The position numbers and the translations under genes are program-made. A stretch of 64,000 nt of DNA. It comes from an uncultured Pelagibacteraceae bacterium. Its GTDB lineage: Bacteria > Pseudomonadota > Alphaproteobacteria > Pelagibacterales > Pelagibacteraceae. The stretch spans positions 1 to 64,000 of the forward strand of contig CABYQM010000003.1 of assembly GCA_902521075.1 (NCBI GenBank). The letters run 5' to 3'. The notes under the pieces are model-generated. The model made no database searches and was not told where the DNA came from. It saw only the letters and a program-made list of their open reading frames with translations. Of this stretch, positions 16,732 to 37,888 are shown piece after piece (positions within the stretch are counted from its first letter, which is position 1; every line of letters begins with the position of its first letter).

Positions 16732-16732
16732 T

Positions 16733-16755
16733 CTTGTGGGGACTAGCCCCACAAG
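16733..16755. terminator. GC-rich hairpin between convergent genes
   Basis: Nine-bp perfect stem CTTGTGGGG / CCCCACAAG with a 5-nt loop sits between the lipoprotein stop and the hsp20 stop. Neither side has a proper T-run, so it may act as a 3'-end stabiliser or a weak bidirectional terminator rather than a classical one. Confidence 0.55.
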
Positions 16756-16763
16756 CAAGGTAC

Positions 16764-17210
16764 TTATTTAATTTCAATAAGTTTCTTTTTTTTATGGTCC
16801 GGAATAATCCTTTCACATGCAATTGTTAAAAGACCATCTTTTAACTCTGCACCATTCACTTTTACATCATCAGCAATTGTAAATGATCTTGCAAATTGTC
16901 TTTGCGATATACCTTTGTGGATTATTTCCCCATCTTGGTTTTTATTTTCACTTCTATCAACTTGTTTAGTTCTTACAGTTAATAGATTATCTTCAAACTC
17001 TACCTCAACATCTTTTTTGTTAAAACCAGCTAAAGCAACCTCAATTGAGTAGTTATCTTTGCCAGTTCTTCTTATGTTGTAAGGTGGGTAGTTTGATTGC
17101 ATACTTAAACCACCATTGCCCAACATGCTTTCGAATTGGTCAAACATATCGTCAAAACCAATTGAGAAAGGCCGAAGTGAGTTGAAAATTGATAGATCCT
17201 TACTTGTCAT
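16764..17210 (-). CDS. Hsp20 / IbpA-type small heat shock protein
   Basis: This 148-residue chaperone that holds unfolding proteins has a short N-terminal arm (FNSLRPFSIGFDDMF) and a central alpha-crystallin domain (about 42-135) with YSIEVALAGFNKKDVEVEFEDN and a final LTIACERIIP strand. A C-terminal I-x-I anchor (LIEIK) is used in oligomer assembly. Strong Shine-Dalgarno AAAGGAGG precedes the ATG but can be masked by a ROSE-like hairpin, and a CTTGAAA/-10 pair typical of RpoH promoters lies upstream. Expression is therefore likely heat-controlled at two levels. Confidence 0.95.
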   Translation of the reverse strand: MTSKDLSIFNSLRPFSIGFDDMFDQFESMLGNGGLSMQSNYPPYNIRRTGKDNYSIEVALAGFNKKDVEVEFEDNLLTVRTKQVDRSENKNQDGEIIHKGISQRQFARSFTIADDVKVNGAELKDGLLTIACERIIPDHKKKKLIEIK

Positions 17211-17268
17211 ATTATCCTCCTTTAATTAAGCAAGTTTATTTATTGATAGCCCCATTAGGCGACTAACG
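17211..17268 (-). promoter_or_regulatory. ROSE-like RNA thermometer in hsp20 leader (candidate)
   Basis: Read in the hsp20 direction, the leader has CTTGCTT, then AATTA, then AAGGAG. This pairs as C-G, U-A, U-G, bulged G, C-G, U-A, U-A around the Shine-Dalgarno. It matches the UUGCU/AGGA core of ROSE elements found before small heat-shock genes in proteobacteria. A second hairpin CGTTAG-TCGC-CTAATG (17253-17268) starts where the RpoH-type promoter predicts the transcript to begin. Structure is inferred from sequence only. Confidence 0.6.
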
Positions 17269-17274
17269 ATGTAT

Positions 17275-17302
17275 ATATGGTAATTAATTTTGATATTTCA
17301 AG
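17275..17302 (-). promoter_or_regulatory. RpoH (sigma32)-type promoter for hsp20
   Basis: On the minus strand, CTTGAAA (17296-17302) matches the sigma32 -35 box exactly. After 13 bp comes TACCATAT (17275-17282), matching 6 of 8 positions of CCCCATNT. The spacing is in the known range. It lies just after the stop of the upstream oligopeptidase gene (17304). The groES promoter shares the same TTTCAAGATC block. Confidence 0.75.
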
Positions 17303-37472: not shown

Positions 37473-37766
37473 TTATTTACCTGTTGCAATACCCATAATG
37501 TCAGATTCTTTCATTATGCTGTACTCTTTACCATCAATTTTAACTTCTGTTCCTGACCACTTACCGAATAAAACTTTATCTCCTACTTTAACGTCCATAG
37601 GTATTAGTTTTCCATCTTCAGTTTTTGCACCTCCGCCGACAGCAACAACTTTACCTTCTTGAGGTTTTTCTTGAGCTGTATCTGGAATAATTATGCCACC
37701 AGCAGTTTTTTCGCTGCTATCTAAAACTTCTATTAAAACACGGTCATGTAACGGTTTAAACTTCAT
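37473..37766 (-). CDS. groES: Co-chaperonin GroES (Hsp10)
   Basis: 97 residues, starting [29 protein letters not shown], which contains the mobile loop (about 17-32) that binds Gro[24 protein letters not shown] is the conserved C-terminal half. It caps the GroEL cavity. AAAGGAG precedes the ATG. It is the first gene of the groES-groEL unit with an RpoH-type promoter upstream. Confidence 0.98.
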
Positions 37767-37792
37767 ACGAATTCTCCTTTAAATTAGCTGTC

Positions 37793-37829
37793 ATATAGAG
37801 ACATATTTAATAATTTTCAAGATCTTGAA
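37793..37829 (-). promoter_or_regulatory. RpoH-type promoter of groES-groEL with palindromic -35 region
   Basis: On the minus strand CTTGAAA (37815-37821) is followed after 14 bp by CTCTATAT (37793-37800, 6/8 to CCCCATNT). The -35 box is part of a perfect 14-bp palindrome TTCAAGATCTTGAA (37816-37829). The hsp20 promoter shares TTTCAAGATC at the same place. Predicted start about 20 nt before groES. Confidence 0.7.
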
Positions 37830-37888
37830 TAAAAATTATGGTCTAAAAAACCCAAGAATAAAGCATATTTTTAAGCTATACCTCAAGT

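Follow-up and report, generated by a model that had tools for sequence, protein, structure and literature searches.

The hsp20 gene of an uncultured Pelagibacteraceae (SAR11) bacterium carries a real and conserved ROSE-like leader of two hairpins, which stands under an RpoH-type promoter and shows an unexplained extension into the start of the coding sequence. We consider it highly probable that the hsp20 mRNA combines the RpoH promoter with a minimal two-hairpin ROSE-like leader that is homologous to the alphaproteobacterial ROSE elements and in which the second hairpin is opened by heat. The leader is about 58 nt long, as initially annotated and as the sequence bears out, and each of its two hairpins has a bulged G, with both bulged Gs being present in all 86 leaders. 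Within the window, that is, the whole stretch of 64,000 nt that was analyzed, the locus consists of the following features:

16764–17210, minus strand: hsp20, encoding a small heat shock protein of 148 aa (PF00011, E = 3e-17)
17199–17207, minus strand: codons 2–4 of hsp20, ACA AGU AAG, frozen at synonymous sites according to codon counts and complementary to the anti-Shine-Dalgarno (anti-SD) sequence CUUGCUU
17216–17222, minus strand: Shine-Dalgarno (SD) sequence AAGGAGG, recognized by sequence
17217–17234, minus strand: hairpin II, the proposed thermosensor, CUU-G-CUU / AAUUA / AAGGAG with bulged G17231; nearly invariant, with limited compensation
17245–17267, minus strand: hairpin I, GUUAGUC-G-CC / UAAU / GGGGCUAUC with bulged G17260; pairing in 97.9% of cells and, on the hsp20 tree, 20 independent double changes
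17275–17280, minus strand: -10 element CCATAT, conserved in relatives and similar to that of the groES promoter of the same genus
17296–17302, minus strand: -35 element CTTGAAA of the RpoH (sigma-32) type; TTG invariant in 84/84 scored relatives, with a spacer of 15 nt in 75/84

In the mechanism that we propose, the hsp20 mRNA would start at the RpoH promoter and begin with the minimal ROSE-like leader. At the 5′ terminus, hairpin I would be a stable element with a structural or protective role, and in hairpin II the anti-SD CUUGCUU would lie on the SD around the bulged G and keep the ribosome off at normal temperature; upon warming, hairpin II would open and Hsp20 would be translated. We infer both this heat-opening and the temperature at which it would take place.

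The hsp20 locus and its promoter

The leader belongs to a small heat shock gene, with the AUG of the PF00011 protein ending the element. The encoded Hsp20 is 38% identical to Escherichia coli IbpA, and a prolyl oligopeptidase gene is located directly upstream of hsp20 on the same strand. Downstream, where hsp20 converges with a small lipoprotein-like gene (window positions about 16732–16752), the intergenic sequence contains an inverted repeat, TTGTGGGG-CTAGT-CCCCACAA, which looks like a shared two-way terminator. The cold-ocean setting assumed in the initial annotation is unsupported: among the closest relatives, with Hsp20 proteins 99–100% identical, are AG-894 and AG-899 single-cell genomes, and these prefixes denote GORG-Tropics genomes, which come from surface water of the tropics and subtropics (PMC12416821), so the temperature setting is probably not cold.

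The minus-strand promoter that had been proposed, CTTGAAA (17302–17296) followed after 15 nt by CCATAT (17280–17275), is found upstream of the hsp20 AUG across Pelagibacteraceae. Among 84 relatives, 73 score at least 11 of 13 against CTTGAAA/CCATAT, a level attained by 0.2% of shuffled upstream regions. The elements resemble the sigma-32 consensus CTTGAA-N(13-18)-CNCCATAT (PMC3669281), and the genome encodes the corresponding RpoH protein (TIGR02392, 354.9 bits against a cut-off of 323.1), as do all 12 of the 12 genomes, this one included, when the curated cut-off is applied. The only sigma factors reported for SAR11 bacteria are sigma-70 and sigma-32 (PMC13198564). As judged from sequence, the assignment of the hsp20 promoter to the RpoH type is well supported. 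In four distant relatives (L111, L200, L202, and L203), the leader is kept and the promoter match is poor or absent.

A second RpoH-type promoter in the window lies upstream of groES (37764–37830, minus strand; CTTGAAA...CTCTATAT), with similar sequences in relatives, including CTTGAAA...CTATAT in the same genus. The only other exact CTTGAA-N-CCATAT in the genome (L239; contig C4, 126267–126294) is located immediately before a gene whose product resembles the response regulators RegA/ActR; the start predicted from it nearly coincides with the AUG, and it may be a chance match.

In 63 of the 84 relatives, 7 nt separate the -10 element from the stem of hairpin I; the transcript start is therefore expected at the foot of this hairpin. 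The intervening nucleotides are freely variable among close relatives. The start near 17268 that was originally predicted, at the first base of a hairpin, agrees with the foot of hairpin I as redrawn below.

Hairpin I is maintained by compensatory changes

Hairpin I, with which the mRNA is predicted to begin, is formed by pairing of G17267–C17258 with G17253–C17245 around the loop UAAU, with one pair being replaced by a U.U mismatch in this genome (17266/17246). Across 84 distinct leaders aligned to fit the structure, 98.5% of the cells of the corrected two-hairpin structure are paired, compared with 92.3% after shuffling, and there are 64 double changes compared with 12.7; sliding the 3′ partner destroys the covariation signal. 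An unfitted MAFFT alignment of 37 sequences, used as a control, gave the same answer (24 double changes vs 8.3). When events were counted on a tree computed from hsp20 without its first 12 codons, double compensatory changes had arisen independently 20 times, and a further 45 changes affected one side only and preserved the pair; breaks numbered 15, and slid partners yielded 0–5 double changes. Thus counted, the compensating mutations show, at the level of sequence comparison, that hairpin I is conserved across the family, and it represents the further stable upstream hairpin that is characteristic of ROSE-like thermometers.

The first hairpin as initially drawn, CGTTAG-TCGC-CTAATG, has to be rejected. 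In 84 distinct relatives, its covariation is 0.186, the same as in shuffled columns (0.186), and 76.7% of its cells are paired, compared with 76.2%; it includes the 5′ arm of hairpin I, but joins it to the loop of hairpin I. The compensatory changes that were to be sought among relatives therefore exist for the corrected hairpin I and do not exceed shuffles for the one first suggested.

Proposed pairing of the Shine-Dalgarno sequence around a bulged G in hairpin II

The arms of hairpin II are 17234–17228 and 17222–17217, with the SD contained in the 3′ arm. The structure CTTGCTT-AATTA-AAGGAG described in the initial annotation holds at 17234–17217, with G17231 unpaired and the bulged G present in 86/86 leaders. 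By sequence, the U(U/C)GCU anti-SD paired with AGGA around a bulged G, the hallmark of ROSE-like elements, is in place; the anti-SD reads UUGCU in 83 of the 86 leaders and UCGCU in the other three, so that CUYGC is invariant in all of them, across genera with 51–57% identical proteins. Because hairpin II, which consists of the SD and its partner, is nearly invariant, covariation says little about it. Nevertheless, limited compensation is detectable: a U.G pair is changed to C-G in three sequences of genera g13/g14, and an outer C-G pair has been gained in 18 of the 22 leaders that lack the inner U-A pair, compared with 1 of the 64 others. With the inner loss coupled to the outer gain, the stem length of hairpin II is held constant. 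The pairing of hairpin II is thus a proposal from sequence that rests on conservation and this limited compensation. A string of the type TTGCT...AGGAG is not improbable in itself, with 0.67 expected by chance per window, and hence the weight is carried by conservation and place.

Relationship to known RNA thermometers

At gathering thresholds, no Rfam family matches this leader. Among 4,227 Rfam families searched on a 201-base stretch, the best is ROSE_3 (RF02523), with 17.8 bits and a library-wide E of 0.13, which, divided by the number of families, corresponds to a single-family E of about 3e-5; the alignment covers the full length of the model (1–69/69) and is in register with the AUG. The proposed covariance search with the Rfam ROSE models, thus, placed ROSE_3 first, but with a score that is far below its gathering score of 43 bits. 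This cut-off is very strict, given that the hsp20 leaders of other alphaproteobacteria are also under the ROSE threshold (28–31 of 45 bits) and that none of the 240 genomes in the class passes RF02523. The SAR11 leaders share with ROSE_3 the two-hairpin layout, the bulged G in both hairpins, and the end at AUGAC, and differ from it in their A+U-rich stems and shorter loops, in addition to the score. No match to the RF00435 model (ROSE of alphaproteobacteria, rhizobial type) was reported for the SAR11 leaders, although the two have in common a first hairpin with a bulged G and GCC-UUAU-GG as well as the UUGCU/AGGA core over the SD; the bulged G and the loop of Rfam ROSE hairpin I, cCgGccGCCuuauGGggCcGg, recur in SAR11 leaders of the type GUAAGUCGCCUUAUGGGGCUUAC. 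RF00435 elements are GC-rich and have more hairpins, the middle ones being absent from the SAR11 leaders.

Among well-characterized elements, the nearest in layout is the short ROSE-like thermometer of Pseudomonas ibpA, which has a sigma-32 promoter and a leader of about 62 nt with two hairpins, of which only the second melts (PMC3669281). Both systems involve a small heat shock gene, a sigma-32 promoter, a short leader with exactly two hairpins, a stable hairpin I, and a second hairpin that contains a U(U/C)GCU anti-SD. However, the Pseudomonas element is gammaproteobacterial and its hairpin I is GC-rich, whereas in SAR11 this hairpin shows the bulged G and the GCC-UNAU-GG loop of alphaproteobacterial ROSE; the SAR11 element differs further in its frozen coding start, which can pair with the anti-SD. 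The co-occurrence of an RpoH promoter and a ROSE-like leader, suggested from the start, is thus upheld by conservation, covariation, and the Rfam ranking, but is less notable than had been supposed: such dual control of a small heat shock gene is not new, because Pseudomonas ibpA has both layers (PMC3669281). In the literature searched, Pelagibacter and the ROSE element appear together only in one general review, and a dedicated survey of Pelagibacter structured RNAs does not mention a heat-shock or thermometer RNA; a ROSE-like leader is apparently unreported in the SAR11 lineage.

Predicted folding and the constraint on codons 2–4

When the modeled sequence ends at the AUG, the predicted opening curve of the leader is thermometer-like: the probability of an open GGAG is <0.0001 at 5 °C, reaches 0.0006 at 25 °C, and climbs to 0.037 at 45 °C. 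The E. coli ibpA leader, a known thermometer, goes from 0.0001 to 0.007 in the same folding model. When codons 2–4 are included in nearest-neighbor folding, the anti-SD moves to codons 3–4 and the SD is unpaired at low temperature, in the window leader and in many relatives. When 18 nt of coding sequence are appended, the SD is less sequestered in the real leaders than after shuffling, and with 54 nt, RNAalifold recovered hairpin I only and not hairpin II. The nearest-neighbor model ignores the non-standard pairs described in ROSE cores, so neither folding result is decisive, and with an outcome that depends on the length of coding sequence included, we dropped a thermodynamic proof of the thermometer.

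Codons 2, 3, and 4 (ACA, AGU, and AAG) are conserved in 143/144, 143/143, and 139/142 sequences of the genus, respectively, even though AGU accounts for 13% of the Ser codons and AAG for 20% of the Lys codons in the gene. They form the least-changed triplet of hsp20 at synonymous sites (4 changes vs a median of 34.5) and are identical in 32/32 sequences of a second genus; the early codons of four neighboring genes show no such freeze on rare codons. AAGUAAG, spanning codons 3–4, can form 7 pairs with CUUGCUU. Being both frozen and complementary to the anti-SD, codons 2–4 indicate that constraint at the nucleotide level extends into the coding sequence. This freeze on rare codons is a new and unexplained observation, with a two-state switch being one reading and a constraint from translation or protein binding another.

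In the former reading, the ROSE-like element itself extends into the coding sequence: the anti-SD pairs either with the SD (off) or with codons 3–4 (AGU AAG), leaving the SD looped, the balance between the two states sets translation, and selection on rare synonymous codons holds the switch in place. This possibility, which we regard as rather unlikely, fits the strong synonymous constraint and the retention of rare codons in two genera, and folding prefers the codon-paired state in about one-fourth of the relatives. Against it, the alternative pairing is largely lost in the three g13/g14 relatives (anti-SD CUCGCUU) and in L111, in all of which the leader is still kept; moreover, covariation cannot be shown because both partners are fixed, and the codon freeze could have another reason.

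It is more doubtful still that the leader is mainly a binding site through which Hsp20 represses its own translation, with heat acting through titration of Hsp20 by unfolded proteins. The precedent is E. coli IbpA, which acts on the 5′ leader of its own mRNA as a repressor and for this needs Arg93, a residue reported to be shared by alpha- and gammaproteobacterial IbpAs (PMC10474464). SAR11 Hsp20 has the equivalent residue, Arg104 (GISQRQF, compared with GIAERNF in E. coli), but in E. coli this repression works alongside the thermometer rather than in its place, and SAR11 has kept the SD-pairing hairpin with its bulged G. With the required arginine conserved, self-repression is plausible as an addition to the thermometer. 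Finally, control by RpoH alone, with hairpin I merely stabilizing the mRNA and the anti-SD/SD match being incidental, is very improbable: stems at the 5′ end, where hairpin I is predicted, can protect mRNAs, as discussed for Pseudomonas ibpA (PMC3669281), and the motif is expected 0.67 times per window by chance, but such control accounts neither for CUYGC being invariant in 86/86 leaders of genera this divergent nor for the exchange of inner U-A for outer C-G pairs (18/22 vs 1/64). The heat-opened two-hairpin leader is the reading that we prefer.

Distribution of the leader in SAR11

In this genome, a covariance model of the leader has one match, with an E of 4e-13; the next, at 1.4, and those that follow are noise, and no further ROSE-like element was found. 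Across the order, the model matches 299 of 397 genomes and 129 of the 151 near-complete ones, nearly always once per genome and before hsp20, and the matches include eight other genera (g12–g19) that were left out of model building. In the 28 genomes checked, every whole hsp20 has the leader element, and the genomes without the element, of which nine were checked, also lack hsp20, one having hsp20 fragments only. Four SAR11 genomes that are 90–99% complete (G163, G189, G229, and G062) have neither hsp20 nor the leader, which suggests that hsp20 is occasionally lost in SAR11.

In the neighboring sister family, hsp20 is about 40–44% identical, and the first hairpin of its leader again carries a bulged G; the leader also has an extra hairpin as well as UCGCUUAAGGAGG. 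These leaders (L131–L145) are longer, with the extra hairpin accompanied by UCGCUUAAGGAGGAUUAA, and their UUUAAUC can also pair with GGAUUAAA over the SD. Three recurrent CTTGCT...AAGGAG sites in the neighboring family were rejected as candidates: those of two types fall within long reading frames, and no start codon follows the third.

Biological implications

Members of SAR11 rank with the most abundant bacteria of the ocean; they possess no more than two sigma factors and a small set of regulators (PMC13198564). The family-wide retention of a likely heat-sensing RNA in such reduced genomes suggests that direct thermosensing by RNA is worth keeping, and the hsp20 leader offers a testable handle on the response of SAR11 to warming water.
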